Below are positions 1 to 41,660 of a DNA stretch of 64,000 bases, piece after piece. The translations under genes and the position numbers were made by a program. The stretch spans positions 1,488,001 to 1,552,000 of the forward strand of contig NZ_JAWQJT010000002.1 of assembly GCF_033441515.1 (NCBI RefSeq), in the 5' to 3' direction. The notes beneath the pieces were generated by a model. The model had not been told where the DNA came from. It saw only the letters and a program-made list of their open reading frames with translations, and searched no databases. The first letter of the stretch is position 1, and each line of letters starts with the position of its first letter. The stretch comes from Amycolatopsis solani. Its GTDB lineage: Bacteria; Actinomycetota; Actinomycetes; Mycobacteriales; Pseudonocardiaceae.

Positions 1-9095
<9,095 letters not shown>

Positions 9096-9135
9096 GGTGA
9101 TCAGCTCCAGTTCGTTCACTGCCGGCGGGGAAGGT

Positions 9136-9342
9136 TCAGCGCATCGCGGCGACGAGGCTCGCCGGGCGCAGGTCGGTCCAGTTCTGCTCGACGTACTCCA
9201 GGCACGCGGCGCGGGTGTCCTCGCCGTGCACGGTCCGCCAGCCCGCCGGGACGTCCACAGTGGACGGCCAGAGCGAGTGCTGGTTCTCGGCATTGACCAG
9301 GACCAGGAAGGTGCCGTTCTCGTCTTCGAAGGGGTTGCTCAT
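9136..9342 (-). CDS. mbtH: MbtH-like protein
   Basis: A 68-residue protein with the MbtH family pattern: N-terminal [22 protein letters not shown], a central VPAGW and C-terminal NWTDLRP. These proteins bind NRPS adenylation domains and help them fold and activate amino acids. The start ATG (AGGAG about 7 nt upstream) overlaps the stop of the MFS gene as ATGA, and the NRPS starts about 40 nt downstream. Translation of transporter, MbtH and NRPS is therefore probably coupled, and this MbtH most likely serves the adjacent NRPS. Confidence 0.96.
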
Positions 9343-10928
9343 GATTTCTTCTCCTCTGTGAGGGCGGCCCGGCCGAGTGCCGGGGTGGCGACGAGCAGGG
9401 CGAGCGCGACGAGCGCGACCGCGGCGTGGGCGAGCATGGTGAGCGGGACGCCGAGCGCCTCGACCATGACGCCGATCAGCAGGTTCCCGACCGGCGTGGC
9501 GGCCAGGGTGAACAGCGCGAGGATCGACATCACGCGCCCGCGCATCTCCGGCGTGGCCCATCGCTGGGCGAGGCTGACGAGCACGAGCGCCGTCAGGCCG
9601 GCGACGAGCCCGAGCGCGAAGAAGGCGGCGATGCCGACGGCCGTCGACCCGGTGGCGAGCAGCGCGAGACACCCGGCCTGCGCGGCGAGCCCAGCGGTGG
9701 CGAGCCGCCCGGCCTTCTCGCGCGGCGGCCACTTGACCGACACGACGAAGGCGAGCGACGCGCCGAGCGTCATGGCGGTGAGCAGCCAGCCCGCTCCCTG
9801 GCTCCCGCCCAGCAGGACGAGCCCGAGGTTGATCGGCCCGGCCCCGCTGAGTTCGAGCAGCCCGGTGACGATCATGGCGGTCCGCAGGGCAGGCCGTTTC
9901 GCGACGTAGCGGCAGCCTTCGCCGACGTCCTTCGCGAGCTGCCGGACCTTGACCCGCTCCCGCGGTTCTTTGCTGGTCAGCGTCTTGGTGTTCCCGGCGG
10001 CGACGGCGGAGACGAGGAAGCTGACCCCGTTGACGACGGCGACGGTGACGAGCCCCCCGAGCCCGGCCAGCCACGACCCGAGTGCCCCACCCCCGGCCTG
10101 CCCCCCACGCACGGCGGCGAGGTAGACGGCGTTGCCCCGCACCAGGTGCTCGGGCGGGAGCAGGTTAGGCCGCAGCGCGTCGGAGGCGGGGATGAAGAAG
10201 GCACTGGCGACGGCCATGACGACGATCAGCCCGGCGAGGAGCGGAACGGAGGGCCCGGCCACGAGCACGGCGGCGGCCCCACCGAGCATGGCCCCGGCCC
10301 GCAAGAGATCGGTGGTGATCAGCACCCGCCGCGGCCCGGTCCGATCGGCGACGGCGCCGCCGACCAGGAGGGTGAGGACTTTGGGGAGGGACCCGAGGGC
10401 GAGGACCAGGCCGGCGAGCGCGGGCCCGGCGGTGCCGACGAGCGTGACGGAGAGGGCGATGAGCCAGACCGCGTCCCCGAAGGAGGACAGGCCCATGGCG
10501 AAGACGAGACCGAGGAAGGGCGCGGGCAGCGCGCGAGGCTTGACGGCGGTGCTCGGTTCGAGAGTGGCCGACCGGGTCTCGGCCGCGGCGGCGGGCAGCG
10601 CTTTGCCCGCGCGGCTCGCTTCCGGGCCGGGCGCCACGCCCGCCGCATCGCGAGGCTCGGTCACCGCACCCGGCTCGGCCACGCCCGCACCCGATCCGGC
10701 CACCGCGACACCCGGCCTGGCCACCACACCCCGCCCGACCACAGCATCCGGCCCAGCCGCCGCACCGCGAAGCTCGCTCACCGCGACACCCGGCCTGGCC
10801 ACCACACCCCGCCCGACCGCAGCATCCGGCCCAGCCGCCGCACCGCGCGGCTCGGCCACGGCGCTCATCCCGGCCGCCACCACACCCGGCTCCGCCGCAG
10901 CCGCGCGGGGCTCCTCGACGGCAGTCAC
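9339..10928 (-). CDS. MFS transporter, likely peptide exporter, start uncertain
   Basis: The C-terminal ~400 residues form a 12-helix major facilitator (first helix [19 protein letters not shown]), of the enterobactin-exporter/MFS_3 type common beside NRPS genes. It probably exports the peptide. The open frame reaches back to GTG 10928, which adds about 130 Ala/Gly/Val/Pro-rich residues encoded largely by a 78-bp tandem repeat. No good ribosome site precedes 10928. In-frame GTG codons near 10664 and 10640 would remove the repeat, so the repeat may be noncoding leader DNA. The stop overlaps mbtH by ATGA. Confidence 0.85.
10703..10858. repeat. Two 78-bp tandem direct repeats
   Basis: Copies at 10703-10780 and 10781-10858 are nearly identical, differing at a few positions (for example GACCACAGC versus GACCGCAGC). 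The period of 78 bp is 26 codons, so the frame is kept. If translated they give two copies of a segment containing [12 protein letters not shown] in the extended N terminus of the MFS transporter. If the transporter starts further downstream, they are upstream regulatory DNA between the hairpin at 10956-11003 and the exporter-mbtH-NRPS operon. Confidence 0.8.
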
Positions 10929-10955
10929 GACACACCCCCGACCGCGGCGACCCCG

Positions 10956-11003
10956 GGTCGTGAGTGATGAGTCGGGTTAGAACCCGACTCATCACTCACG
11001 ACC
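10956..11003. terminator. 23-bp perfect hairpin, family A copy 1
   Basis: The left arm 10956-10978 begins GGTCGTGAGTGATGAG, the loop is AG, and the right arm 10981-11003 is the exact complement. It lies 28 bp after the stop of the glutamate-synthase-like gene and 28 bp before the first possible start of the MFS gene, both on the minus strand. There is no U-tract, as is usual for high-GC actinomycete terminators. A near-identical copy is at 39606-39653. Confidence 0.8.
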
Positions 11004-11031
11004 GGCCGCGCCGGACCTGCCGAGCCGCGCG

Positions 11032-12285
11032 TCATGACAGCACCTGCTCGCGGACCGGGACGGACGTGCCCGGGAACCAGACGTCCTCCGGGGTCAGCGC
11101 GTCCGGCTGGTACTGCCCCAACGCGCTCAGCAGCAGCCGCAGCTCCAAGGCCAGCGCCTCCGCGAACCGCACCAGCCCGGACTCCGGATCCGTGTCGACC
11201 GCCAGCAGCGCCGCCCGGCCGAGGCCCGCCGCGCGGGCGCCCAGCGCCAGGACCTTCGCCACCCGGGTGCCTTCCCACATCCGGCCCGACGCCAGCAGGC
11301 ACCCGGCCGGTGCGCCGATGCGGGACAGGCACTCACCCAGCGGGAGCCCGACCGGGCCGAACGACAACGGCGTCCAGCCCGAACCACCCTCCGCGCCGTC
11401 GACCGTCACCGCGTCCGCGCCGGCCTCCCACGCCACCGAAGCCGCCGAAGCGACGTCGCGGCCTGGCGGGAGCTTCACCCACACCCCGGCGCGCGGAAAG
11501 TTGTTGCGCATCAGGCGGATCTGCTGCCGCAGGATCTCCGGCGTGAACGTCCCGGGCGAACTGCTCCGCAGCACCGAAGACCCCAGCGTCAGGTCCACCG
11601 CATAAAGAGAAGCGAGCGAAGCAGCGTCAGAAGGCGAAACCAGCGTCATCCCACCCAGCCCGGGCTTCGCGCCCTGCCCCACCTTCAGCTCGAACGCCAG
11701 CCGCCCGGACTCGAGCAGCGAAGCCGCCGACGGGTCGGAATACACCAGGTTCCAGACCTCCGCGTCGGCGTCCTCCGTGCTCTGCTGCACGACGACGCCG
11801 CCGAGGCCGTCCGGGACCGCGTCGCCGTACGCGCGCAGGCGCTCCAGCAACGTGCCCGCCGACGGACCGCCGGCCCGGCCGTGGCCGTGCACCGGGACGA
11901 CGTTCTCGCCGATCACCATCGGGATCCCGAGCCGGCCGGCCTGCGCCGAAGCCGCCGCGCCGAGCCCCGCGCCCGCCACCTGCGTCGAACCGAACGCCGA
12001 CAGGTACACCGGCAGCGAGGACGCGAACCCGCCGATCGACGTCGACAGCGAGACGTCGCCGTACAGCGGCTCGCGGCCCAGCTCGATCAGCTTCTCCAGC
12101 CGCCGCGGCACGAACACCGGCGGGACCAGCCGCGCCGACTCCAAGAGATCCGCGGAATCGGACGAAGACCCGCCGAACAAGGAAGTCCCATACGAAGTAG
12201 CCGAAGGGAACACCGCCGCGGCCCCGGATCGGGCCCGCTCCCGGACGAGATCCTCGGGGAACCCCGAAGCCTGCAACGCGGTCAC
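11032..12285 (-). CDS. Glutamate-synthase-like FMN-binding protein
   Basis: A 417-residue protein resembling only the FMN-binding barrel of glutamate synthase large subunits. It has KVGQGAKPGLGG, a DAVTVDGAEGGSG phosphate-binding segment and a glycine-rich end (GARAAGLGRAAL). The 3Fe-4S cysteine cluster of true GOGAT (C-x5-C-x4-C type) is missing: the matching stretch reads LAVDTDPESGL. The glutaminase domain is also absent, so ordinary ammonia transfer from glutamine is unlikely. The GTG start overlaps the stop of the synthetase-like gene by GTGA, which ties the two proteins to one pathway. The reaction is unknown; an FMN-dependent step on a methylaspartate-derived amino acid is inference. 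Confidence 0.8.
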   Translation of the reverse strand: MTALQASGFPEDLVRERARSGAAAVFPSATSYGTSLFGGSSSDSADLLESARLVPPVFVPRRLEKLIELGREPLYGDVSLSTSIGGFASSLPVYLSAFGSTQVAGAGLGAAASAQAGRLGIPMVIGENVVPVHGHGRAGGPSAGTLLERLRAYGDAVPDGLGGVVVQQSTEDADAEVWNLVYSDPSAASLLESGRLAFELKVGQGAKPGLGGMTLVSPSDAASLASLYAVDLTLGSSVLRSSSPGTFTPEILRQQIRLMRNNFPRAGVWVKLPPGRDVASAASVAWEAGADAVTVDGAEGGSGWTPLSFGPVGLPLGECLSRIGAPAGCLLASGRMWEGTRVAKVLALGARAAGLGRAALLAVDTDPESGLVRFAEALALELRLLLSALGQYQPDALTPEDVWFPGTSVPVREQVLS

Positions 12286-13265
12286 GGCGAGACCACCCCC
12301 GGCAGCTTCGGGAACGCGGTCGCCTGCCACACCGCGTCCAGCCCGGCGACGTACCGCGTGAACCGCTGCACGCCCAGCCCGAACCCGGCGCTCGCCGGGA
12401 TCCCGGCCCGGACCAGGTCGAGGTACCACGCGTACTTCGCCGGGTTCTCGCCCGTCTCGCGCATCCGCGTGACGATCCGGCCGTAGTCGTGCTCGCGCTC
12501 GCTGCCGGAACACAGCTCGCCGTACCCCTCGGGCGCGATCAGGTCGAAGTTGCGCAGCACCCCCGGCGTGGAAACGCTTTCCCGGTCGTAGAACCCGCGC
12601 GAGCCCTTCGGGTAGTCGACGAGGAAGAACGGCCGCGCGTGCTTCTCCGACAGGATCGCCTCGCCCGCCCAGTCGATCTCGGCGTCCGCGCTCTGCGGGT
12701 GCCCGAGCTCGCGCAGCGTCTCGACGGCGGTCGCGTGCGACAGCCTGCCGAACGCGCCGCCGAGCAGATCGGTGAACGCGCCCGAGTCGCGGCCCAGCGC
12801 TTCCAGCACGTCGCCCGCGTCCTCGACGACCCGGCGCACCACGTGCGCCACCAGGTCCTGCAGCAGGTCGAGCACGTCGTCGCGGGACGCCCCCGCGACC
12901 TCGACGTCGAGCTGGTGGAACTCGGCCAGGTGCCGGCTCGTGTTCGCCGTCTCCAGCGGCTCGAGCCGGACGTTCGGCGCGACGTAGAAGATCTTCGAAA
13001 AGCCCAGCAGCGACGCCTGCTTGTACAGGATCGCGCTGGTCATCAGCTTGTAGCGGTGACCGTAGAAGTCGACGTCCACCTGCTTCGCGCCGCGGCCGCC
13101 CGGATCGGTGACCGGGCCGATCACCGGGGGCAGCAGCTCGGTGAAGCCGCGGGCGCCGAGGAACGCGCGTGCCTCGGCGAGCAGCTTGTGCTGGAGGCCC
13201 AGCACGTGCCGCGTGGTCTCGGAGGTCAGGTGCGTGCGCGGGTCCGGCGGATCGGTGTACTCCAT
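12282..13265 (-). CDS. AsnRS/AspRS-like (AsnA-type) class II synthetase paralogue
   Basis: A 327-residue class II aminoacyl-tRNA synthetase core. The motif 2 region reads TSRHLAEFHQLDVE, where AsnRS has RRHLPEF-type sequence, and motif 3 reads GFGLGVQRFTRYV. Residues 1-40 run straight into the core, so the OB-fold anticodon domain is absent and tRNA charging is unlikely. Such paralogues (asparagine synthetase A and archaeal AsnRS-related proteins) adenylate aspartate and transfer it to ammonia. Placed 30 nt after glutamate mutase and coupled to an FMN protein, a plausible role is activation or amidation of 3-methylaspartate; this is inference. Confidence 0.82.
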   Translation of the reverse strand: MEYTDPPDPRTHLTSETTRHVLGLQHKLLAEARAFLGARGFTELLPPVIGPVTDPGGRGAKQVDVDFYGHRYKLMTSAILYKQASLLGFSKIFYVAPNVRLEPLETANTSRHLAEFHQLDVEVAGASRDDVLDLLQDLVAHVVRRVVEDAGDVLEALGRDSGAFTDLLGGAFGRLSHATAVETLRELGHPQSADAEIDWAGEAILSEKHARPFFLVDYPKGSRGFYDRESVSTPGVLRNFDLIAPEGYGELCSGSEREHDYGRIVTRMRETGENPAKYAWYLDLVRAGIPASAGFGLGVQRFTRYVAGLDAVWQATAFPKLPGVVSP

Positions 13266-13295
13266 GGCGTTCTCACTCCCAGCTGGTCGGGCGGT

Positions 13296-14537
13296 TCAGG
13301 ACAGGACCGGGTCGAGCCGTCGGCGGTGGTAGGACAGGTCGGCGAGCAGCCGGGTCGCGCTGACCCGGTCGTGGCCGCGGCGGCCGCCCAGCGCGGGCGG
13401 CAGCGGCATCCGGCCGGTGTGCCACCACTGGAGGCGGCCTTCGTCGTCGAGCACGCACCGGGTTTCGCCGCCGTTGTCGGGGTGCAGGCAGTACGGGACG
13501 TCGAGCAGGCCGCGCTCGAACGCCGCCGGCAGCGCCTCGGTCAGCGTCGGGGCGAGCGAGCGCACCTCGTCGACGAGCAGCCGCGCCTGGGCGTAGACCT
13601 CGGTCTCGCCCGGCGGCGCGCCCGGCGCGGGCTGCTCCAGCGCGGTCGCGTGCGCCAGCCGGAGCGCCGAGACGTTCTCTTCGACGGTCGGGATCCGGTG
13701 CGCTTCCGCGGTGGTCTTGACGATCAGCCGCTCGGTGCCGGTGCGCACGGCCAGCCGCACGCTCTCGGCGACCAGCTCCCGCGCCCCGGCCGCGGACTCG
13801 GGGAACAGCCCCATGTAGGTGTAGAGCACGATGTGGTGGTCCACAGTGGACAGTTCCTCGGCGCACAGCCGCCGCATCGCCCACAGCGCTTCGGCGTCCT
13901 GCTCGGGGCTCGTCTGCTGCGCGTAGCTGGCCGACACGCTGCGCACGCCGTGCTCGGCGAAGAACAGGCACTCCAGCACCGACAACGCGACGAGCAGGCC
14001 CGGCGGGCACAGCTGGCCGAGCATGCAGCCGCCGAAGCTCTCCAGGTGGCAGTCCACGGCCTGCCCGGCCAGCAGCGACGCCGAGCGCGACCACGACTTC
14101 GCCGCCGTCCGCAGCGGCACGCTGCTGTAGGGCAGGCAGTAGGACACCGGCCCGCCTTCGGAAGCGTCGAGACCGGATTCGAGCATCACGGCGAAGATGT
14201 CTTCGGGCTGCGCCGAGCCGTGCCGGACCTGGACGGGGAAGCCGGGCAGGTCCGCGACCAGCTCGGCGGTGACGGCCGGGCCCAGCGCCACCAGCGGGTA
14301 GCCGTTGAGCGGGACCCCGGACTGGATCGACATCGCGGCGAGGTCGTGCTGCCCGGTGCGGGTGTAGCTGTCGAGCGTCACGGTGCCGACGGCCGGGACG
14401 CCGGCCCCGGCCACCGCGTGCAGCCCGCGGCGCATCGCGGCCGGGTCGGAGAACCCCATCCGCGGCTGGACGACGAGCGTCCGGCGGCGGCGGTGCTCGG
14501 CCACGAACGCGCTGAACACCGACCGGGCAGCGGTCAC
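13296..14537 (-). CDS. glmE: Glutamate mutase (methylaspartate mutase) large subunit
   Basis: A 413-residue GlmE/MutE family protein, shorter than the clostridial enzyme (about 483). It would catalyse the adenosylcobalamin-dependent carbon-skeleton rearrangement of L-glutamate to threo-3-methylaspartate together with the small subunit. Recognisable segments include QPRMGFSDPAAMRRGL near the N terminus, SGLDASEGGPVSYCLPYSSVPL, and a central HLESFGGCMLGQLCPPGLL. GTG 14537 overlaps the small-subunit stop by GTGA. A preceding frame extends to 14918 but is antisense-type sequence inside the small subunit. In actinomycetes this enzyme usually supplies methylaspartate for natural products such as friulimicin and vicenistatin. 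Confidence 0.92.
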   Translation of the reverse strand: MTAARSVFSAFVAEHRRRRTLVVQPRMGFSDPAAMRRGLHAVAGAGVPAVGTVTLDSYTRTGQHDLAAMSIQSGVPLNGYPLVALGPAVTAELVADLPGFPVQVRHGSAQPEDIFAVMLESGLDASEGGPVSYCLPYSSVPLRTAAKSWSRSASLLAGQAVDCHLESFGGCMLGQLCPPGLLVALSVLECLFFAEHGVRSVSASYAQQTSPEQDAEALWAMRRLCAEELSTVDHHIVLYTYMGLFPESAAGARELVAESVRLAVRTGTERLIVKTTAEAHRIPTVEENVSALRLAHATALEQPAPGAPPGETEVYAQARLLVDEVRSLAPTLTEALPAAFERGLLDVPYCLHPDNGGETRCVLDDEGRLQWWHTGRMPLPPALGGRRGHDRVSATRLLADLSYHRRRLDPVLS

Positions 14538-15019
14538 CGCAAGGTCCGGATGTTCGCGGCGACGAACTCGCGGAAGGACTCGATCGCCTGGCCGGAATCG
14601 CCGGCGCCGACGTGGAAGACCGCGTCGTAGCCCAGCGCCAGCAGCTCGGCCTCCAGCGCGCTGTTCGCGTCGCCGTGGACGCCGAGCTTGCCGCCGATCA
14701 CGGCGGGCAGGCCGGCCAGGACGGCGTCGGCGCGCAGCGCGGAGATCACCCGGGCGCCGTCGACGTGGCCGTGGCCGTTGATGGTGCTGATCACCAGGCA
14801 GTCCGGCCGCTCGGCGCGGCACGCTTCCAGCAGCCGGCCGACCGGGACGCAGGCGCCGAGGTTGACCACCTCGTGGCCCATTTCCTCCATGATCAGCTGG
14901 AGGGCGACGAGGTTCCACATGTGCGAGTCGGACTGGACGCTGGACAGGACGAACTTCAGCGCAGGTTCCGCGGACACGGCGGGCCGGTCCGGGGTCTGCT
15001 CGATCTGGAAGGTGGTCAT
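14534..15019 (-). CDS. glmS: Glutamate mutase small, B12-binding subunit
   Basis: A 161-residue cobalamin-binding Rossmann protein. It shows the base-off B12 signature DSHMWNL (D-x-H-x-x-N here; the clostridial protein has D-x-H-x-x-G), followed by MGHEVVNLGACVP, VISTINGHGHVD and IGGKLGVHG. The His replaces the lower axial ligand of B12. GGGAG sits about 9 nt before ATG 15019. It is the first gene of the minus-strand biosynthetic run and is translationally coupled to glmE. About 25 extra N-terminal residues precede the domain. Confidence 0.93.
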   Translation of the reverse strand: MTTFQIEQTPDRPAVSAEPALKFVLSSVQSDSHMWNLVALQLIMEEMGHEVVNLGACVPVGRLLEACRAERPDCLVISTINGHGHVDGARVISALRADAVLAGLPAVIGGKLGVHGDANSALEAELLALGYDAVFHVGAGDSGQAIESFREFVAANIRTLR

Positions 15020-15429: not shown

Positions 15430-18300
15430 ATGCTCGATCCCGTGATTCCCCCGCAGCCGAACCCGGCGACCACGACGCTCCCGCCCACCTGGTGGGCGGC
15501 CGGGCTGACCCCGCACGAGCGGCGCCCCGACGGCACCCGCCCCGCGTGGGTGGACTTCGCCGAGGCCGCACTTTCACGTGAAAGTGCCGACCTGGGAGCC
15601 GCACTTTCACGTGAAAGCGGCGCTTGGCGCGAGGCGTTCGCCGCGGTGTTCCGTCCCTTCACCGACGCGGCCCGTGCCGCGATCGCGGCTGCCGCAGCGG
15701 GCTCGCCCGCCGTCGACGCCGCGCCGGTCGCGGACGGCTGCGCCGCGCAGCTCGGCCACCAGCTGGCCGGCCTCGCCGCCCGCACCCTGGTGCTGGAGCT
15801 CGGCCGGGCGCGGCACAAGGGGATCCTCGAAGGCGAGACGCCGGAAGCGCGCTTCGCCGACTTCGTCCGCCGGACCGGCACCCCCGCGGGGCTGACCGAC
15901 CTGCTGCACCGCTACCCGGTGCTCGCCCGGCTCGCCGCGCAGGCGTCGCTGCACGCCATCGCGGCCACCACCGAGCTGCTGGCCCGGTTCGACGCCGACC
16001 GCGTGGCCCTCACGGCGTTCACCGGCACCGACCCGGGGCCGCTCGTCGAGGTCAGCGGCGGCACCGGGGACGCGCACCAGCGCGGCCGCTCGGTCCGCGA
16101 ACTGCGGTTCGCCGGCGGCGCGCGGGTCGTCTACAAGCCGCGCCCGCTCGACCTGCACACGGCGTTCACCGCGCTGGTCGGCTGGCTCAACCCGCGCGTG
16201 CCCGGTCTCGAACTGGCGTCCGTCGACGTCCTGGCCCGGCCCGGCTACGGCTGGCTGCGGTTCGTCGAGCACCGGCCGTGCGCGGACCTCACCGAGGTGG
16301 ACCGCTTCTACCGCCGCCAGGGCGTGCTGCTCGCCCTGCTGCACGCCCTCGACGGGACCGACGTGCACTTCGAGAACATCATCGCGGCCGGCGACCAGCC
16401 GGTGCTGATCGACATCGAGACGCTGTTCCAGCCTGTGCTCCCGGCCGAAAGCACCGAAACCGACCCGGCCGCCGAGCTGCTCGCCCGCTCGGTGCACCGG
16501 ACCATGCTGCTGCCGCAGATGATCGTCGGCGAGCACGGCGCGGTGGACATCTCCGGGCTGGGCGGCGGCCGCGCGGCGGCCCCGGCGCTGGAGCGCGTCG
16601 ACTGGCTCGACGCCGGCACCGACCGCATGCGGCTGGTCCGGGTGCCCGGCGGTGTCGGCACCGGCGTCAACCGGCCCACCCTCGGCGGCATCGACATCGA
16701 GCCCGCCGAGCACGGCGCCGCGCTGCTGGCCGGGTTCCGCGCCGGGTACGACGCCATCGCCGCCGGCGCGACCGAGTTCGCCGCGCTGCTGGAAAGCTGC
16801 GCCGGCGCCGGGATCCGCGTCCTGGTCCGCCCCACCAGCTTCTACACCCGGCTGCTCGACGAAACCACGCACCCGTCGCTGCTGGCCGACGCGGCCGCGC
16901 GGGACGAAGCGTTCGGGCTGCTGCACGACGACAGCACCGACGACGTCCGCCGCGCGCTGGTGGCCGCGGAGCTGACCGACCTGTGGGCCGGCGACGTCCC
17001 GATGTTCACCGGCGAGCCCGGCTCCGCCGACGTCTGGGACGCCGAAGGCAACCGGCTGGCCGGCCTGCTCGGCACGACGCCGCTGGCGACGGTGCGGGCG
17101 AAGGTCGCCGGCATGACCACCATCGACCGCCGCGACCAGGAGTGGCTGATCACCGCCGCGCTGGCCACCCGGCCCGACGCCGAGACGCACACGGGCTGCG
17201 GGGTCAGCGACGGCATCCTCCCGAGCAAGACCCCCGAGCCCGCGCACCTGCTTTCGGCCGCGTGCGGCGTCGCCGACGCCATCATCGCCCGCGCCTCGAC
17301 CTCCGGCGGGCGCGTCAACTGGGTCGGGCTGGAACTCGTCGACGAGAAGTACTGGACCGTGCTGCCGATGGGCGGCGGGCTCGGCGAGGGCTACCCCGGC
17401 GTGGCGCTGTTCCTCGCCCAGCTCGCCGAGCTGACCGGCATCGACCGCTACCGGGACCTGGCCGGGAAGGCGCTTTCCGGCCTGCCGTCGCTGGTTTCCG
17501 CGCTCGAAGCCGACCCGGACCTCGCCGAGGCGGCCGGGCCGGGCGGCCTGCTCGGGCTGGGCGGCGTCGCCTACGCCGCGGCCCGCCTCGCGCGGCTGCT
17601 CGACCGGCCGGACCTGCTGGACCTCTGCGCCCGCACGGTCGCGGTGATGCCGGCCCCGACGCCGCGGACGTCACCGCGGTTCACCACCGGGCTGGCCGGC
17701 GGCCTGGTTGCGCTGCGCTCGGTCGCCACGCAGACCGGCCTCGAACCCGCCACCGCGCTCGCCGGCGCCTACGCCGCCGAGCTCGCAAGCCGGTCCATCG
17801 ACCCCGATCTGGCCGACCCCGGGTTCGCGCACGGCGCGGCCGGCGTCGACTGGGCCCTGTCCGGGCACCCGCGCGAGACCGCGACCCTGCCGCCCGCGAA
17901 GGCCGCGACCGGGCACGGCTGGTGCTCCGGCCTGGCCGGCCAGGTGCTCGCCTACGCCGGCGACCCCGACGTGCTCGGCGGCCTCGACGAGCAGGTCCGG
18001 CGCCTCGCCGCCCAGGAACCGCTGCGCGACCTTTCCCTGTGCCACGGCGAAACCGGCATCACCGACGTCCTCGGCGTGCTGGCCGAGACCGGCCACGCCG
18101 GCGCGGAAGCCGCGCTCGCCACCCGGACCGGCCTGCTGCTCACCGCCGTCGAACAGGACGGCGCGCGCTGCGGCACCCCGGACGGCGTGCCCTCCCCCGG
18201 CCTGCTGACCGGCCTGGCCGGCATCGGCTACGGCCTGCTGCGCCTCGGCTTCGGCCCCCGCGTCCCGTCCGCCCTGCTCCTGCAAGCCCCGACCCGCTGA
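15430..18300 (+). CDS. lanM: Class II lanthipeptide synthetase (LanM)
   Basis: A 956-residue bifunctional LanM. The N-terminal dehydratase phosphorylates Ser/Thr and eliminates phosphate. Its catalytic set appears intact: K236 in VYKPRPLD, D311-x-H313-x-x-N316 in GTDVHFENI, then LIDIETLFQP, and an Arg-x-Thr region RVLVRPTSFYTRL. The C-terminal LanC-type cyclase keeps the zinc ligands C832 (HGWCSGLAG) and C871-H872 (LCHGETG). The protein should therefore dehydrate and cyclise. Three peptide genes follow from 32 nt downstream, but none encodes a cysteine, the usual ring-forming residue. No peptidase/transporter (LanT) is nearby. ATG 15430 and GTG 15442 are both possible starts. Two palindromes lie in the coding sequence at 15568-15618. 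Confidence 0.93.
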   Translation: MLDPVIPPQPNPATTTLPPTWWAAGLTPHERRPDGTRPAWVDFAEAALSRESADLGAALSRESGAWREAFAAVFRPFTDAARAAIAAAAAGSPAVDAAPVADGCAAQLGHQLAGLAARTLVLELGRARHKGILEGETPEARFADFVRRTGTPAGLTDLLHRYPVLARLAAQASLHAIAATTELLARFDADRVALTAFTGTDPGPLVEVSGGTGDAHQRGRSVRELRFAGGARVVYKPRPLDLHTAFTALVGWLNPRVPGLELASVDVLARPGYGWLRFVEHRPCADLTEVDRFYRRQGVLLALLHALDGTDVHFENIIAAGDQPVLIDIETLFQPVLPAESTETDPAAELLARSVHRTMLLPQMIVGEHGAVDISGLGGGRAAAPALERVDWLDAGTDRMRLVRVPGGVGTGVNRPTLGGIDIEPAEHGAALLAGFRAGYDAIAAGATEFAALLESCAGAGIRVLVRPTSFYTRLLDETTHPSLLADAAARDEAFGLLHDDSTDDVRRALVAAELTDLWAGDVPMFTGEPGSADVWDAEGNRLAGLLGTTPLATVRAKVAGMTTIDRRDQEWLITAALATRPDAETHTGCGVSDGILPSKTPEPAHLLSAACGVADAIIARASTSGGRVNWVGLELVDEKYWTVLPMGGGLGEGYPGVALFLAQLAELTGIDRYRDLAGKALSGLPSLVSALEADPDLAEAAGPGGLLGLGGVAYAAARLARLLDRPDLLDLCARTVAVMPAPTPRTSPRFTTGLAGGLVALRSVATQTGLEPATALAGAYAAELASRSIDPDLADPGFAHGAAGVDWALSGHPRETATLPPAKAATGHGWCSGLAGQVLAYAGDPDVLGGLDEQVRRLAAQEPLRDLSLCHGETGITDVLGVLAETGHAGAEAALATRTGLLLTAVEQDGARCGTPDGVPSPGLLTGLAGIGYGLLRLGFGPRVPSALLLQAPTR
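15568..15618. repeat. Two in-frame palindromes inside lanM
   Basis: Copy 1 at 15568-15587 is the perfect 20-bp palindrome GCACTTTCACGTGAAAGTGC. Copy 2 at 15601-15618 begins GCACTTTCACGTGAAAG. The spacing is exactly 33 bp, so both are read in one frame and encode AALSRES twice. The element resembles an intergenic palindrome more than coding sequence, which suggests insertion of a small dispersed repeat or a DNA-binding site inside the gene. Confidence 0.75.
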
Positions 18301-18332
18301 TCCGCCCCACCTTCACGAGGAGAGAACCACCG

Positions 18333-18512
18333 ATGCGCGAAACCACGACCGAGACCGCCGAAGCCACCGTCGGCGCCCTGGTGCTCCCGCGGGCGAACCA
18401 CGCCGGCTCGCGCAACCAGGCGCTCGCGGGCACCCGGCCCCGGCTGTCCGGCGTCACGCTCGACACCTTCGGTTCGCCGACCGTCGTCACCAACGGCACC
18501 TTCGCCCTCTGA
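18333..18512 (+). CDS. Cys-free candidate precursor peptide 1 for LanM
   Basis: A 59-residue peptide starting 32 nt after lanM, with AGGAG about 10 nt before the ATG. It shares the block VGALVLPxANxAGSRNxALAG with the next two peptides (their version is GDLTLPxSARTGARNxALSG). The tail after this block is rich in Ser and Thr (8 of 26 residues) and ends in GTFAL. There is no cysteine, so a lanthionine within the peptide cannot form. It is too short for automatic callers but is supported by paralogy, position and ribosome site. The leader/core boundary is unknown; the block ending at ALAG is a plausible leader end. Confidence 0.82.
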   Translation: MRETTTETAEATVGALVLPRANHAGSRNQALAGTRPRLSGVTLDTFGSPTVVTNGTFAL

Positions 18513-18549
18513 TCCCCTCCCCGTCCCCCGCACCCGAAAGCGATCCCCC

Positions 18550-18720
18550 ATGACCGAGCCCGAGTTCCCCGAGAACCCCGTCGGCGACCTGACCCTCCCC
18601 GTCTCCGCCCGCACCGGCGCCCGCAACCGCGCGCTGTCCGGCCAGGCCCCGCGGCTGAGCCAGAACAGCCTGAGCACCCTCGACATCACGCCGGTCTTCA
18701 CCGTCGCCTTCGCCGAATAG
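18550..18720 (+). CDS. Cys-free candidate precursor peptide 2 for LanM
   Basis: A 56-residue peptide. Over a 39-residue stretch beginning NPVGDLTLP it matches peptide 3 at 31 positions, with SQNSLxTxDIT shared. The N terminus MTEPEFPEN is acidic, like a leader. The tail after ALSG has six Ser/Thr, two aromatic Phe residues and no Cys. Its ribosome site is weak (GAAAG). The strong conservation of both leader-like block and tail, in three tandem copies after lanM, supports substrate status. Confidence 0.82.
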   Translation: MTEPEFPENPVGDLTLPVSARTGARNRALSGQAPRLSQNSLSTLDITPVFTVAFAE

Positions 18721-18764
18721 CTTCCGTTTCACCCCGCACGACTACCGAGAGTGGAGCCACCTGC

Positions 18765-18938
18765 ATGACCGAGCACGACTTCGCCGGCCTGGACAACCCG
18801 ATCGGCGACTTGACCCTCCCGGCGTCCGCCCGGACGGGCGCGCGCAACCACGCCCTGTCCGGCAAGGCGGCGCGGGTCAGCCAGAACTCGCTGACGACGA
18901 TGGACATCACGGTCGTCACGGGCGCTTTCCCCGGATAG
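18765..18938 (+). CDS. Cys-free candidate precursor peptide 3 for LanM
   Basis: A 57-residue peptide with GGAG about 10 nt before ATG 18765. It carries NPIGDLTLPASARTGARN and then SQNSLTTMDIT, and ends in GAFPG. Six Ser/Thr follow the ALSG boundary and again there is no cysteine. It differs from peptide 2 mostly by conservative changes (V/I, L/V, S/T, L/M), as expected of selected paralogues rather than noise. The LAL regulator begins about 70 nt downstream. Confidence 0.82.
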   Translation: MTEHDFAGLDNPIGDLTLPASARTGARNHALSGKAARVSQNSLTTMDITVVTGAFPG

Positions 18939-19006
18939 TGAGACGATCACCGCGTCGGTAATTCGACCTACGCCCGGAGGACGCCCGTCCGGTTATAGTG
19001 ACCGCG

Positions 19007-21895
19007 ATGGGCATCCGATCGACGCGCCTGATCGGGCGCGACAGGGAGCTCGGCGCGCTGTCCCAGGCCCTGGAGAAGGCCCGCACCGACCACGGTGGGG
19101 CCTTCTTCCTCGTCGGTGAAGGCGGGATCGGGAAGTCCCGGCTCGCCGCCGACGTCGCCGCGCGGGCACTGGCGACCGGGCTCCCCGTGCTGCGCGGACG
19201 AGCCAGCTCGATCGGGCCGATGGTGCCGTTCCGGCCGCTGGCCGAAGCCCTGCTTTCGCACTTCCGCGGCGGCCACCCGCCCGCGGCGCCCGAACTCGAC
19301 CCGCTCGTGCCGGTGCTGGCCCGGCTCGTGCCCGACTGGTACCGCGGCGACCGCCCGCACGACAACGGCAACCTCCTCGTCCTCGCCGAGGCGGTGTTCC
19401 GGCTGCTGTCGGTGGCGGGGCGCGAAAGCGGCTGCCTGATCGTCCTGGAAGACCTGCACAACGCCGACGCCGAAACCCTGTTCATCGTCGAGTACCTCGT
19501 CGACAACCTGGCGTCGAGCCGGGTGATGCTGATCGGCACCCTGCGCAACGAACCGGGCGAGGCGCTCCGGCTGGCGACCGCGGCGGCGCAGCGCTCGGCC
19601 AGCCACACCTTCGAACTGACCCGGCTCGACGCCGCGAGCACCCGCGAGTTCGCCGCCGCCTGCCTGGAGACCGAGCCGGCCGCGGTGCCCGCCGCCGTCG
19701 CGAACCTGTTGTGGCAGAACAGCGAGGGCGTGCCCTTCGTCGTCGAAGAGCTGCTGCACGGCATGGTCAGCGACGGCCTGCTCGTCGGCGGCGCGAACGG
19801 CTGGCAGGTCGTCGGCGAACTGCAGGCCCGCGTGCCGGAGGCGCTGATCAGCAGCATCGCCGCGCGCGTCGACGCACTCGGCGCGGACGGCGAGACGCTG
19901 CTGTCGGTGGCCGCCGTGCTGGGCAGGCGGTTCCCGCTGTCGGTGGTGCAGGCGGTCACCGACATGGACGACCGCATGCTGCACAACCACATCAGCGCGA
20001 GCGTCGCCGCGCACCTGGTCACCACCGACGAGACCACGCCCGGCTGGTACGCCTTCCGCCACCCGCTCACCGCGGAGGCGCTGCTGGCGCGGCTCGTGCC
20101 GTCGACCAAGGCGAACCTGGCTCGCCGGGCCGCCGACGCCGTCGAGCTGCTGCACCCGGGCCTGCCCGGTGAGCTGTGCGCGCTGGCCGCGGCGCTGCGG
20201 CTGACCGCGCTGGACCACCCCGGCGCCGGGCGGCTGTTCGCCGAAGCCGGCCGCCGCGCGCTCGACGGCGGCGCCGCCGACTCGGCGGTGACCATGCTGA
20301 CCCGCGCCGTCGACCTGATGGCCACGGCGAGCCCCGACGACCGCGCCGACGCGCTCGAGTCCCTGCTGCACGCGCTCGGGCAGACCGGCCAGTTCGACCG
20401 CGCGGTCGGGTTTTCCGCCCGGTTCGCCGAGATCGGCCGCCTGGAGCGGGCGGTCGACCTGCACGTCCAGCTGGCGTGGGCGGCCTACATCGGCGGGCGG
20501 CACGACGAGTGCCTCAACCAGATCGAGCAGGCCCGCGCCCCGCTCGGCGGCGAGATGACCGAAGAGCAGAAGGCGGGCCTCGACGCCGTCGAAGCGACGC
20601 TGTGGCTGGACATCCCGGGCCCGGCGCACACCGAACGCGCCCGGCAGCTCGCCGAACAGGCGTGGCAGGTGGCCGAGCGCGTGGGCGTGCCGTTCGTGTC
20701 GTGCCAGGCGTTGCAGGTGCTCGGGATGGTGGCGCTGGAAACGGATCTGGCGGAGGCCGAGCGCTACCTGCAGCTGGCGCGGCGGCTGGCCGAACGCCAC
20801 CAGCTGACGCACCTGCGCACCCAGGTGCTGGTCCGCCTCGGCGGGCACCGGATGCTGGCCGAGGGCGACGTCCGCACGTTCGACCTCGCCCGCGCCGAAG
20901 CCCAGCGCACCGGCGCGATCACGCTGACCTGCGCGGTCGACGCGAGCCGCGCGGTGCACGCGGTGATGCGCGGAGAGTTCGCGCAGGCCGATCGCATTCT
21001 CGACGAAAACCTCGCGGTGCTGGGCCGGCTCCGGCTGGTGGCGCTGCTGCAGTACACGCACATGACGCGCGCGATGGTGGCCGCGCACCAGGCGGACCGG
21101 CCGCGGATGGAAGCCGCGCTCGACGACTTCCGCGCCGAGGGCGGCAACAGCGCGCAGGAGATGGTGCTGAGCGTCGGGCTGGCGCAGGTGTTCTGCTCGC
21201 TGCTGGAGGAGGACGCCGAACGCGCCCGCCGCGAACTCGCGCAGGTGCTGGCTCTGGAGGAGCGCCAGCCGAGCCGCTTCCACCTGGCGGGCCAGCACGG
21301 CCTCCGGCTGCTGTTCGAGGCGCTCGACGGCACGGCCCCGCCGGAACGGCCCCCGGCCGCGGTGAGCGGCATGCGCTGGAACCGCCAGTTCGTCCTGCTG
21401 GGCGACGCGGTCCGCCACGGCCGCGCCGGCTCCCCGGAGCTGGCCGACGAAGCGGTGGCGGCGGCGATCGAGGCCGCGTCCCCGTTCCCGGTGAGCAGGC
21501 ACCTCGGCCTGCGCATGGTGGCGGAGTCCGCCGCGGCCGACGGCTGGGGCGACCCGGTGACGTGGCTCAAGGAGGCCGAGGAGTACTTCCACCAGGCGGA
21601 TGTGACGGCGGTGGCGAGCGCGTGCCGCGGGCTGCTGCGCAAGACCGGCGTCGCGGTCGGCCAGCGCCGCACGGGTTCGGACCGCCTGCCGGCGGGCCTG
21701 CGCTCGGCGGGGGTGACGGTCCGCGAGTACGAGGTGCTGCAGCTGCTGGCGGACAACATGGGCAACAAGGACATCGCCCGGCGGCTGCACATCTCGCCGC
21801 GGACGGTGGAGAAGCACGTGGCCAGCCTGATGGCGAAGTCGAACCTGCAGAACCGCAGCGCGTTGACCGAGTACGCCCGCAACACCCCGCACTGA
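19007..21895 (+). CDS. LuxR-family LAL-type ATPase regulator
   Basis: A 962-residue protein. It has an N-terminal AAA/NB-ARC-type ATPase (Walker A GEGGIGKS at residues 37-44; Walker B-like CLIVLEDLHNAD near residue 145), a long helical tetratricopeptide-like middle, and a C-terminal LuxR helix-turn-helix (VTVREYEVLQLLADN, IARRLHISPRTVEKHV). LAL proteins are usually pathway-specific activators of secondary metabolism. It follows the three peptide genes on the same strand, so control of the lanM locus is likely, with the NRPS genes also possible. TATAGT at 18994-18999 ends 7 nt before ATG 19007 and could give a leaderless message; GTG 18998 is the alternative start. Confidence 0.92.
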   Translation: MGIRSTRLIGRDRELGALSQALEKARTDHGGAFFLVGEGGIGKSRLAADVAARALATGLPVLRGRASSIGPMVPFRPLAEALLSHFRGGHPPAAPELDPLVPVLARLVPDWYRGDRPHDNGNLLVLAEAVFRLLSVAGRESGCLIVLEDLHNADAETLFIVEYLVDNLASSRVMLIGTLRNEPGEALRLATAAAQRSASHTFELTRLDAASTREFAAACLETEPAAVPAAVANLLWQNSEGVPFVVEELLHGMVSDGLLVGGANGWQVVGELQARVPEALISSIAARVDALGADGETLLSVAAVLGRRFPLSVVQAVTDMDDRMLHNHISASVAAHLVTTDETTPGWYAFRHPLTAEALLARLVPSTKANLARRAADAVELLHPGLPGELCALAAALRLTALDHPGAGRLFAEAGRRALDGGAADSAVTMLTRAVDLMATASPDDRADALESLLHALGQTGQFDRAVGFSARFAEIGRLERAVDLHVQLAWAAYIGGRHDECLNQIEQARAPLGGEMTEEQKAGLDAVEATLWLDIPGPAHTERARQLAEQAWQVAERVGVPFVSCQALQVLGMVALETDLAEAERYLQLARRLAERHQLTHLRTQVLVRLGGHRMLAEGDVRTFDLARAEAQRTGAITLTCAVDASRAVHAVMRGEFAQADRILDENLAVLGRLRLVALLQYTHMTRAMVAAHQADRPRMEAALDDFRAEGGNSAQEMVLSVGLAQVFCSLLEEDAERARRELAQVLALEERQPSRFHLAGQHGLRLLFEALDGTAPPERPPAAVSGMRWNRQFVLLGDAVRHGRAGSPELADEAVAAAIEAASPFPVSRHLGLRMVAESAAADGWGDPVTWLKEAEEYFHQADVTAVASACRGLLRKTGVAVGQRRTGSDRLPAGLRSAGVTVREYEVLQLLADNMGNKDIARRLHISPRTVEKHVASLMAKSNLQNRSALTEYARNTPH

Positions 21896-32518: not shown

Positions 32519-35242
<2,724 letters not shown>

Positions 35243-35246
<4 letters not shown>

Positions 35247-35932
35247 CCCGTGCCCTCCTCGTCTTCGGTCAGCGAGTACCGCGCGCGCAACATGCCGCGG
35301 CACACGCCGGAATTGGCCTCCATGCTCGTGCGGGTCAGCCGTGCGAAGGCGAGATACCGCTTCGCGTCGGCCGGGGTCGTGCCGGTAGCCGGGTCGAGCA
35401 GCAGCGGGTCGCCGTCCTCGGCGGGCAGGCCGAGCTCGCGGCGGCGGGCCCGGAGCCGGTCCAGATCCGGGCTCGGCGGGACGTCACCGAGGGTCAGCGA
35501 CCGCGGGTCGCGGCCCAGGGACCGGCACACGCGGTCGGTGCCGGCCAGCACCGCCTTGCGGACGAAGTCGTACCGCAGCGTGTCGAGCTCGTCGACGGCC
35601 TCGCCCTCGAACGAAGCGACGAACCCCTGCCGGGCCGCCACCCCGCGGTTGATGACGTCGGACGCGAAGTGGTCGTCGAGCCGGATGTCGAGCCCGGTCA
35701 GGCCCGGCACCCCGGCCACGGCGTCGTAGGCGTCCGCCACCATCAGGAACGCGAAGTTGGGCGCGCAGAAGTACGTCGGCAGCCGCAGCCGGATGACGGC
35801 GTGCCCGTCGTCGTCCACCTCGCAGCGGGCGACGAACCCGAGGTCGGTGAGGGGTTCGTCCAGTTCGGGATCGCGGACGGTGCCCAGCGCCGCCCACACG
35901 GCGGCGCGGGCACCGAGCACCAGGGTGGTCAT
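35243..35932 (-). CDS. DUF59/MIP18-type iron-sulphur assembly-like protein of mim operon
   Basis: A 229-residue protein. Residues 10-85 have the DUF59 pattern (VWAALGTVRDPELDEPLTDLGFV, LPTYFCAPNF), followed by a helical C terminus unique to this operon type. DUF59 proteins help metal or Fe-S cluster delivery, so a role in loading the diiron enzyme or the reductase cluster is plausible but inferred. It is coupled on both sides by ATGA overlaps. Confidence 0.82.
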
Positions 35933-36966
35933 GAGTTCGGCACGCCGACCGGCTCGACCGATTCCGGGTCCTTGAGCCGCAATTCCGCCGGCACGTCGAT
36001 GTCGTAGAGCCGCGCGGCGTTCAGCCCGAGGATCTTCTTCTTCTGGTCGACGGTCAGCGGCGGGAAGTCCGACAGCTCCTCGTCGGCCGGCATGTTCCAG
36101 TCGACGAAGCCCTCGACCTGCCACTTGGGTTCCCAGATCGCGTAGTCCGCGCCGAAGATCAGCTTGTCCTCGCCGAGCCAGAACATCAGCTCGCCCATGA
36201 CCTTCGCGAAGAACTTCGGCCGGGCGTGCATCAGGCCGCCGACGACCACGGCCAGCCCCGCGTAGACGTTGCGCTCCTGCGTGGCCATGAAGCAGAAGTC
36301 CTCGATGCGCGGCAAGCCGACGTGTTCGACGATGAAGTTGAGGCCCTGGAAGTCCGTCGCCACGTGGTCCACATCGGACACGTCGAACGCGTCCTTGTCG
36401 AGCGGCCAGATCGTCGGTCCCTTGTGGATGTGGATGTTCTTGACGCCCAGTTCCTCGCACTTCTCGAGGTACTTCGCCGCTTCCGGGTCCTTGAGGCTCC
36501 AGCCCCGCGAGTCGCCGCGCCACTCGGCGGTGTAGAGCTTGACGCCCTTGCAGCCGTAGCGCTTGACGCGTTCCTCGAGCGCCTTCAGGCCTTCGTCGCC
36601 TTCACGCGGGTCGAAGGTGGTGTTCACGAGGAACTTGCCGGGGTGCTTCGCGGCGAGTGCGGCGTCGGCTTCGGTGGTGTTGAAGCCGTTCTTGTACCAC
36701 TGCCGCAGGTTCGTCGGCTGGAAGATGGCGGTGTCGACGTGCCCGACCTCGAACAGGTCGTGCATCATCAGCTCTTCCGAGTACTTCTGGAACCGGTCGA
36801 TCGGCCAGTGCGTCTCCTTCGGGCCGAGGCCCTGGTAGGCGTGGAAGCACTCGATCCAGCCCTTGGCGTATTCCTCCTGGCCCTTGACCCAGTTGTCCGG
36901 GCTCGCGTCCCAGAAGTGGGTGTGGGCGTCCACCACGAAGTATTTTTCGCCGTCTTTTTCGTACAT
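35929..36966 (-). CDS. Amidohydrolase (amidohydrolase_2 family)
   Basis: A 345-residue TIM-barrel metal hydrolase with HTH in VDAHTHFWD near residue 15, KLYTAEWRG, HIHKGP, VEHVGLP and a late Asp in IFGADYAIWEP. This family includes decarboxylases and lactone hydrolases. It is a constant member of mim/prm operons between the coupling protein and the dehydrogenase. Its exact substrate there is not known to me. Confidence 0.9.
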   Translation of the reverse strand: MYEKDGEKYFVVDAHTHFWDASPDNWVKGQEEYAKGWIECFHAYQGLGPKETHWPIDRFQKYSEELMMHDLFEVGHVDTAIFQPTNLRQWYKNGFNTTEADAALAAKHPGKFLVNTTFDPREGDEGLKALEERVKRYGCKGVKLYTAEWRGDSRGWSLKDPEAAKYLEKCEELGVKNIHIHKGPTIWPLDKDAFDVSDVDHVATDFQGLNFIVEHVGLPRIEDFCFMATQERNVYAGLAVVVGGLMHARPKFFAKVMGELMFWLGEDKLIFGADYAIWEPKWQVEGFVDWNMPADEELSDFPPLTVDQKKKILGLNAARLYDIDVPAELRLKDPESVEPVGVPNS

Positions 36967-37006
36967 GGTTGATCCTCCTGAGCGGATCGAGTGCTTCCTT
37001 GCCGGA

Positions 37007-37378
37007 CTACTGAACGGGCTTGAGGTCGAAGTCGAGGTACTCGGCCGCGTCCTCGGGGTTGGCGAACATGATCGTGCGGTCGTCTTCGTGGATCATCCGC
37101 CCGTAGTGGGTGGACATGCTCTCCTCGAACTCCGCCGCGTTGAACCAGCCCTCCTCTTCGCCGGCGGCCTCGTCGACCTCGGCGTAGACGACGTCCATGC
37201 GGCCGACCGCGTCGACCCGGATCATCGACGGCAGCGGGGTGATCGTGACGTTGTCCTTGGTGCCCATCACGTCCGCGATGATCGCGCCGACCTGGTTGTT
37301 CATCAGGGTGAAACCGCACATGTTGGACGCGGTGTTGTTCGTCTTGAACGGGCTTTCCGCCGTCTTGAAGATGGTCAC
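37007..37378 (-). CDS. mimD: Monooxygenase coupling (effector) protein, MmoB/DmpM family
   Basis: A 123-residue cofactorless effector (NMCGFTLMNNQVGAIIADVM, VTITPLPSMIRVDAVGRMDV). Such proteins bind the hydroxylase and control electron transfer and substrate access. GTG 37378 overlaps the small-hydroxylase stop by GTGA. An upstream run in the same frame is antisense-like and is rejected. Confidence 0.93.
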   Translation of the reverse strand: MTIFKTAESPFKTNNTASNMCGFTLMNNQVGAIIADVMGTKDNVTITPLPSMIRVDAVGRMDVVYAEVDEAAGEEEGWFNAAEFEESMSTHYGRMIHEDDRTIMFANPEDAAEYLDFDLKPVQ

Positions 37379-38544: not shown

Positions 38545-38551
38545 GGGTTCC

Positions 38552-39580: not shown

Positions 39581-39605
39581 CCCAGCCCCGTCTCGCTCGG
39601 TGCGG

Positions 39606-39653
39606 GGTCGTGAGTGTTGAGTCGGGTTCTAACCCGACTCAACACTCACGACC
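39606..39653. terminator. 23-bp perfect hairpin inside the mim operon, family A copy 2
   Basis: The left arm 39606-39628 begins GGTCGTGAGTGTTGAG, the loop is CT, and the right arm is 39631-39653. It differs from the 10956-11003 hairpin by one base pair and the loop. It lies between mimA and mimB, so it may cause partial termination or protect the mimA transcript. Confidence 0.75.
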
Positions 39654-39661
39654 GGTTCGTG

Positions 39662-41314: not shown

Positions 41315-41394
41315 GGATCACTCCTTATCTCCTGAGCTCGCCGCCCAGGGCGTCCTGCGGTGACCATTGAACGGGCGACCCGCGGGTGACGCGG

Positions 41395-41409
41395 GTCTCA
41401 ATCTGAGAC
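41395..41409. promoter_or_regulatory. Activator site candidate upstream of mimA
   Basis: GTCTCA-ATC-TGAGAC is a perfect palindrome with a 3-nt spacer, 81 bp before the mimA start. A second copy with the same arms lies at 41695-41709 next to the regulator gene. This arrangement fits binding by the Fis-type regulator encoded divergently. Confidence 0.7.
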
Positions 41410-41420
41410 AGAACCGCTGC

Positions 41421-41660
41421 TCAGGGCGTTTCGTCCGCGCCGAGCACCCGGGCGCGGAGTGCGGCGAGCTCCTCGTGGACGCCGGCCTGCACGCGCGCGT
41501 CGCCCTCGACGGTCGGGACGATGCCGAGCGCGCGCAGCAGCGCGGCGGCGGGTTCGCCGGGGTGGCCCTCCGCGCCGAGGGTCGGGTGCAGGCCCGCTTC
41601 GGCCAGGTGGGTGAAAACCAGGTTGACGATCGTCCAGGGGTTGTACGTCTCGGCGGCCAT
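41421..41660 (-). CDS. Small protein between the two activator sites
   Basis: A 79-residue acidic protein (MAAETYNPWTIVNLVFTHLAEAGLHPTLG, then PAAALLRALGI). It lies on the mimA strand with one palindrome 35 bp before its start and the other 12 bp after its stop. Codon use looks real. It may be the first gene of the mim operon. No known domain is recognised. Confidence 0.68.
   Translation of the reverse strand: MAAETYNPWTIVNLVFTHLAEAGLHPTLGAEGHPGEPAAALLRALGIVPTVEGDARVQAGVHEELAALRARVLGADETP

Follow-up and report, generated by a model that had tools for sequence, protein, structure and literature searches.

A branch of LanM enzymes paired with mostly cysteine-free peptides and a LAL-type regulator in Amycolatopsis solani and its relatives

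The stretch of DNA analysed here, called the window, comprises 64,000 nucleotides of Amycolatopsis solani (contig NZ_JAWQJT010000002.1, positions 1,488,001 to 1,552,000). It contains lanM, a gene for a class II lanthipeptide synthetase-type enzyme, followed by three small genes for cysteine-free precursor peptides and a gene for a LAL-type LuxR regulator. The pairing of LanM with cysteine-free peptides, pointed out in a first-pass annotation of the sequence, is correct, and it is general rather than a one-off: the proposed check, whether the leader block recurs with cysteine-free tails beside LanM homologues, came out positive at 83 of 111 distinct LanM loci with a precursor. The window appears to hold one copy of a minimal module, consisting of lanM, one to three small precursors, and a LAL/LuxR regulator. 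The reading we favour, with about as much belief as doubt, is that these enzymes form a dehydrating LanM branch that makes dehydroamino-acid peptides without a thiol in the peptide, probably tied to the regulator.

The gene module and its relatives

LanM (956 residues, positions 15430-18300, plus strand) scores 639 bits against the NCBIfam model TIGR03897, whose cut-off is 304, and has both class II synthetase domains in Pfam, DUF4135 (dehydratase) and LANC_like (cyclase). The only related solved structures at E<=0.01 are LicM2 (6st5, E 5.6e-80) and CylM (5dzt, E 3e-37). The dehydratase residues K236, D311, H313, N316, D328, E330, R463, and T469 are present, as are the zinc ligands C832, C871, and H872 and the acid histidine H801; K236, D311, H313, N316, and the three ligands lie at the positions given by the first-pass annotation. 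R463 and T469 align with CylM R506 and T512, which we take to be elimination residues, and H801 (in GFAHG) is aligned with GFSHG of LicM2. Residue 833, which adjoins the first zinc cysteine and is aligned with CylM K876, is Ser. The earlier description of intact ring-forming motifs holds for the zinc ligands and H801; residue 833 is His in all 15 LanMs outside the clade described below.

The peptides are encoded at 18334-18513 (peptide 1, 59 residues, tail ..LDTFGSPTVVTNGTFAL), 18550-18720 (peptide 2, 56 residues, tail ..SLSTLDITPVFTVAFAE), and 18765-18938 (peptide 3, 57 residues, tail ..SLTTMDITVVTGAFPG), and the regulator at 18998-21895 (965 residues, AAA_16 N-terminus, GerE/LuxR C-terminus), all on the plus strand. 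The gaps from lanM through the peptides to the LAL gene are 33-59 bases; the LAL gene, which starts 59 bp 3' of peptide 3, was absent from the first-pass annotation. The three tandem small open reading frames (ORFs) reported there are indeed free of cysteine, with a count of zero in each, and the core cysteine expected of a class II lanthipeptide is lacking. The SQNSL and LTLPxSARTGARN blocks described in that annotation are found in peptides 2 and 3, but peptide 1 has a divergent LVLPRANHAGSRN instead. None of the peptides has a match in Pfam (E<=0.01) or NCBIfam, and they show no Nif11-type leader, a Pfam domain that we take to be the mark of prochlorosins and cyanotins.

Orthologues of the peptides recur in the 10 closest loci, two to three per locus. 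The median ratio of non-synonymous to synonymous substitution rates (dN/dS) among these loci is 0.28 for peptide 1 (28 pairs), 0.64 for peptide 2 (21 pairs), a weak signal for this peptide, and 0.31 for peptide 3 (45 pairs); for a 64-residue peptide of the next clade (clade II), it is 0.23 (18 sequences, 153 pairs). Because the orthologues recur with dN/dS below 1, we consider the peptides to be real genes. The opposite view, that the small ORFs are not genuine genes and have nothing to do with LanM, could appeal to their shortness, the lack of Pfam and NCBIfam matches, and the ratio of peptide 2. We rejected it and leave it hardly any probability: leader-bearing ORFs adjoin LanM at 111 loci, dN/dS is 0.23-0.31 for peptides 1 and 3 and the clade-II peptide, and a large protein set contains 100 homologues at E<=0.001. 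Conservation of the short ORFs, which the first-pass annotation had left to be checked, is borne out by the same 10 closest and 111 wider loci. Among the 100 homologues, 84 have no cysteine in the last 35 residues; the source names shown for them are mostly "hypothetical protein" or nothing, and they add the genera Saccharothrix, Actinosynnema, Lentzea, and Actinokineospora.

An alignment of 28 diverse precursors shows R27 and L31 (numbered as in peptide 3) without variation and G33 almost constant. A Ser/Thr-Val-Ser/Thr/Ala block is present in 84 of 95 unique cysteine-free precursors. Among the precursors with the leader motif, 44 of 93 cysteine-free and 23 of 23 cysteine-bearing ones have a hydrophobic stretch of 17 residues behind the leader block (8 of 124 unique precursors without the motif were left unscored); the three peptides of the window do not have this stretch.

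A LanM match (E<=1e-30) was found in 53 of 80 genomes sampled from the genus, and a peptide 3 match (E<=0.1) in 37 of 80. In a family sample, 105 of 297 genomes (13 of 46 genera) match LanM at E<=1e-110. Order and class samples gave 25 of 298 and 3 of 296 at E<=1e-100, own genome included, and these matches include genomes of four other families. Named carriers are Amycolatopsis, Kutzneria, Actinophytocola, and Actinocrispum. A match in Longispora is partial (44%) and is accompanied by a LAL match; one in the myxobacterium Hyalangium (34%) has no LAL match and falls outside the clade.

For comparison, loci were oriented by LanM, leader-like ORFs were sought downstream, and where several loci had an identical LanM only one was retained. 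A locus was labelled cysteine-bearing if any precursor had Cys in its last 35 residues; L203 is so labelled, though its Cys lies only in the leader block. The LanMs of L117, L119, L134, L167, and L170, which are partial, broken, or without a readable start, were kept out of the residue counts; L134 has a cysteine-free precursor, and L117 and L119 have a LAL match with no precursor found. L160, where a LAL gene but no precursor was found, was assigned to neither group. The 111 loci divide into 83 cysteine-free and 28 cysteine-bearing ones. In 23 of the latter a CC pair is present, typically in TTCCP-like tails after a hydrophobic, signal-peptide-like stretch. This CC type (L114, L138, L146, L149, L168, L195-L199) has the look of a signal peptide with a short TTCC tail, for example ..PSVSA-APANV..GSTCC, a likeness that might account for the lack of an exporter. 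The leader of L135 and L136 is of the WKDPxxR form, which we take to be mersacidin-like, and their precursors have a single Cys, in SxSxPC; the Cys patterns of L122 and L141 differ from these.

Two trees of 74 and 76 LanM representatives were built with a quick method, L160 and L203 being labelled cysteine-free by hand in the larger one. In both, all module LanMs form one clade apart from other LanMs, with a Shimodaira-Hasegawa-like approximate likelihood ratio (SH-aLRT) support of 100. L135 and L136 are the first branch within it, the CC-type rows form one group (support 94 in both trees), and most cysteine-free rows form a second group (support 92 and 84). L141 falls within this second group, and in the 76-row tree L202 falls outside it. 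The cysteine-free label changes three times on either tree, and the tree gives no direction. In a FastTree of all rows, L205 joins L168 and L169 inside the clade (71% and 74% identity, respectively), and L204 falls outside. These three (L205 at G129:C47:11659-22300) have a shorter LanM type of ~800 residues. With L205 moved to the clade, the outside group comprises 15 LanMs, one of which (L087) has only 22 bases downstream; cysteine-bearing precursors were seen by eye at L090, L095, and L096, the three outside loci inspected.

Every one of the 111 precursor loci has a LAL relative (tblastn, E<=1e-10), and none of the 15 loci outside the clade has one. It lies on the same strand within 2 kb downstream at 105 loci, is convergent at 5, and lies elsewhere at 1. 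When 81 neighbourhoods were compared by length-filtered clustering, LanM was found in 81 and LAL in 78; the two families that follow, present at 20 and 16 loci, are precursors, judged by size and loci, and each remaining family occurs in at most 14. No exporter, protease, immunity, or tailoring gene recurs across the compared loci. Three clusters (5, 12, and 15), read by eye, are further regulator-like families upstream of lanM, mostly divergent.

The zinc site and the proposed product

We propose that LanM would recognise the shared leader P-[AIV]-G-x-x-x-L ... G-x-R-x-x-x-L-x-G, phosphorylate Ser/Thr in the C-terminal block (TTVS, STVVS, or TVVT), and eliminate the phosphate to give dehydrobutyrine or dehydroalanine (Dhb/Dha). 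A peptide without cysteine cannot form an internal thioether, and therefore the local product of the cysteine-free branch is most likely a linear dehydroamino-acid peptide without rings. The cyclase domain keeps its zinc site but in most members would be detuned for Michael addition and have another role, such as holding the substrate or using a less common nucleophile. The peptide and the neighbouring LAL regulator most likely act together, and the peptide may be the regulator's ligand.

The dehydratase residues bear on how far the reaction would go. In the 83 cysteine-free LanMs, D311, H313, N316, D328, E330, and R463 are invariant (83/83 each), T469 is Thr in 75 and Ser in 8, and K236 is Lys in 69, Arg in 13, and Gln in 1. 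The invariant residues presumably include those with phosphorylation roles, which together with the eight Ser at T469 (CylM T512) would suit an enzyme that halts at phosphorylation, LanM being a peptide kinase and the product a phosphopeptide. However, R463 is kept in 83/83 and T469 is intact in the window, so elimination should work, and we regard the kinase explanation as highly unlikely.

The zinc ligands C832, C871, and H872 are likewise present in 83/83 each. At position 801, His is found in 18 (window included), Arg in 45, Trp in 13, Phe in 3, Asp in 2, and Ala and Glu in 1 each; the window's own clade (clade I) keeps H801 in 10/10. Position 833 is Ser in 48, Asp in 12, Ala in 9, Gly in 5, Glu in 4, Thr in 3, and His in 2, with no Lys or Asn. 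In the 28 LanMs of the cysteine group, C832 is kept in 26, C871 in 27, and H872 in 26, position 801 is Asp in 19 and His in 3, and position 833 is His in 1. The 15 LanMs outside the clade keep H313, H801, C832, H833, C871, and H872 in 15/15 each. According to the available part of PMC9934072, the enolate is protonated by a conserved acid at the equivalent of 801 (LanCL1 His219, NisC His212, CylM His835), and mutation of this acid was harmful in six enzymes (NisC, SpaC, LctM, ProcM, LanCL1, and LanCL2). The equivalent of 833 is described there as a variable enolate-stabilising residue, His, Lys, or Asn in characterised LanMs, and removal of this His in LanCL1 barely altered the rate. The zinc site of the clade is thus strictly constrained while the acid is lost in 65/83 cysteine-free and 25/28 cysteine-group LanMs. 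A dehydro-peptide product, one of the options raised by the first-pass annotation, would fit the loss of the acid His in those 65.

The kept ligands could instead serve to couple the dehydrated peptide to an external thiol, such as mycothiol or cysteine, in the way that human LanCL proteins add glutathione. The 83/83 ligands are in favour of this explanation, and LanCL1 is a precedent for intermolecular addition (PMC9934072, available part). On the other hand, the acid His is missing in 65/83, though the window keeps H801, and no other gene recurs beyond 14/81 neighbourhoods. We judge an external thiol to be distinctly unlikely.

A cross-link without any thiol would arise if a Ser/Thr hydroxyl replaced Cys, giving a zinc-promoted ether, the oxa-analogue of lanthionine. 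By eye, VS of TTVSAP stands opposite CC of TTCCPP, and TVSAPG opposite SVSAPC of L136, but a computed alignment puts TTVS and TTCC in different columns, and short tails align poorly. A hydroxyl is also a poor nucleophile for such an addition, and we know of no precedent for an ether cross-link made by a LanM zinc site. We give this explanation only a very slight chance.

Unlinked precursors and the weighing of the evidence

Four of the 10 closest (clade-I) genomes (G017, G025, G061, and G069) carry a further precursor, unlinked to lanM, that combines the same leader with a cysteine-bearing core such as DTLSLYCDGNPSARGEC. These precursors (L081, L082, L083, and L084) lie directly upstream of a second LAL gene, and no LanM match was seen within the 18 kb fetched around them in the four genomes. 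Because they directly precede a LAL gene, the link between peptide and regulator is independent of a neighbouring LanM. Two further LAL genes of the same close family were noted, one in the window genome (L237, C2:2561322-2564156) with no precursor visible upstream, and one (L232, G006:C6:6209632-6212445) with none seen upstream in a genome that has no LanM match at E<=1e-30.

The unlinked precursors are also the main evidence for a substrate in trans. LanM would then be an ordinary cyclase, its true cysteine-bearing substrate would lie elsewhere in the genome as for prochlorosins, and the local peptides would be minor or only dehydrated. The invariant zinc ligands and the retention of H801 throughout clade I agree with this. 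In the window genome, however, a profile search showed no cysteine-bearing leader peptide among the 4 places with E<0.01 (20 weaker places were left out), which are peptides 1-3 and a weak, cysteine-free orphan homologue (C1:3462413-3462547, E 0.0013). A single-query search (E<=0.05) gave as further off-locus places only this homologue and G013:C25:8186-8311 (E 0.047), which has an inner stop. A cysteine-bearing partner was set aside as a general explanation, being seen in just 4/80 genus genomes. We consider a trans substrate to be unlikely overall, but it and the external thiol are both still in contention, most of all for the clade to which the window belongs.

Returning to the dehydro-peptide branch that we favour, several observations weigh against it. 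Cysteine-bearing precursors are present at 28/111 family loci; the first-pass annotation had named such precursors near lanM in relatives as a sign against its proposal, and the outcome is divided, with 83 loci free of Cys and 28 with it (23 of them CC). The acid His is mostly missing from the cysteine group too (3/28 keep it), so that its loss does not run parallel to that of Cys. Residue 833 is weak evidence, because Ser or Asp could still hydrogen-bond the enolate and removal of the LanCL1 His changed the rate little. Invariant zinc ligands are what would be expected if a thiol were still used, and the adjacency of the regulator may mean mere operon control. One clade member, L205, shows neither a precursor nor a LAL match within about 4 kb; its LanM, in which residues 313, 801, and 833 are Asn, Ser, and Arg, may be decaying or working in trans. 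Finally, 4/10 genomes of the window's clade carry a cysteine-bearing precursor elsewhere and H801 is kept in 10/10, and therefore the window LanM may still cyclise in trans.

A bolder form of the favoured reading is that a LanM branch in several actinobacterial families abandoned lanthionine, that its dehydro-peptides serve a dedicated LAL regulator as ligands (writer, signal, and reader in one minimal unit), and that the zinc site is retained in a non-cyclising role. We regard this form as tentative and rather doubtful. If the dehydro-peptide reading is true, not every LanM makes lanthionine, and the clade offers a natural series of tails (SVSAPC, TTCC, TTVSAPG, and TVVT) and of residues in the acid position (His, Arg, Trp, or Asp) with which catalytic parts of the cyclase could be tested singly. 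If the regulator link is true, the module would be a compact signalling unit based on a modified peptide.

Surrounding genes and comparison with known systems

The window has a G+C content of 72%, and the host genome is 10.28 Mb. On the minus strand at 1-15019 are nonribosomal peptide synthetase (NRPS)-like ORFs, an MbtH-like gene, and a major facilitator superfamily gene (the NRPS and MbtH labels were given by eye), with a cassette of flavin mononucleotide (FMN) Glu_synthase-like, AsnA-like, and methylaspartate mutase E and S genes. These genes 5' of lanM look like a separate cluster, and the NRPS may obtain 3-methylaspartate or a derivative from the cassette. It was set aside as a part of the module, since it lies on the opposite strand beside NRPS-type ORFs. 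The cassette is found in 6/35 loci compared, five from the window's own clade and L096 (G029:C1:5497000-5515000), where the LanM near the four genes is an unrelated one (29% identity) whose precursor bears cysteine. Farther along, a soluble di-iron monooxygenase-type operon (35929-41660, minus strand) lies close to a GroEL gene (32519-34210), both labelled by eye. Within the lanM coding region, the perfect palindrome CTTTCACGTGAAAG occurs twice (15571-15584 and 15604-15617, 33 bp apart). It has 85 sites genome-wide, often paired ~33 bp apart, against 0 for a control, and lanM has two copies in L001-L006, one in L007, and none in L008-L010. This is a dispersed palindromic repeat, in frame within a coding gene.

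Cysteine-free LanM peptides have already been mentioned in print. In the available parts of the cited papers, LanM precursors without Cys are noted for clusters with both LanM and LanKC, citing Zhang et al. 2015, and for some cyanotins (PMC7268733), and some ProcM substrates are Cys-free (PMC11251773). The same large survey discarded all ORFs without Cys (PMC7268733), and therefore a cysteine-free precursor family falls out of it by design. Class II lanthipeptide clusters are described across Kutzneria (PMC10232511), the passages seen giving no precursor sequences. We found no description of lanM, a cysteine-free peptide, and a LAL gene as a module in the literature searched, most subscription papers being outside its reach. 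The "distinct class II RiPP type" (ribosomally synthesised and post-translationally modified peptide) of the first-pass annotation is supported in that these LanMs form a clade of their own, but LanM-linked cysteine-free precursors are not new (PMC7268733).

The actinobacterial LanM and LanKC clusters resemble the module in having LanM with cysteine-free precursors. No LanKC link was seen here, since no family besides LanM, LAL, and the precursors occurs in more than 14/81 neighbourhoods, and LanKC was not found among the window neighbours in the Pfam and NCBIfam search; overlap in sequences is possible, Zhang et al. 2015 being known through PMC7268733. Prochlorosins and cyanotins share substrates without Cys, possibly far from lanM (PMC7268733, PMC11251773), but there such substrates are some among many, whereas here they are the rule for a whole branch. 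CA_C0082-type proteins of clostridia also tie a LanM-like gene to regulation, in that case as an effector without catalytic residues; they lack the zinc ligands and the dehydratase residues, and their genome has no other lanthipeptide genes (PMC10301443, available part), whereas the window LanM has both sets intact and precursors beside it. Human LanCL1 has a zinc site able to act without Cys in the same peptide (PMC9934072), but it is a stand-alone cyclase-type protein that keeps the acid His, which most clade members do not. The closest likeness in domain order, dehydratase residues, and zinc ligands is to the class II LanMs CylM and LicM2. Compared with these, the clade has mostly cysteine-free precursors, an acid His that is mostly replaced (though not in the window), and, in place of a recurrent exporter, protease, or immunity gene, a LAL partner at every precursor locus (111/111).

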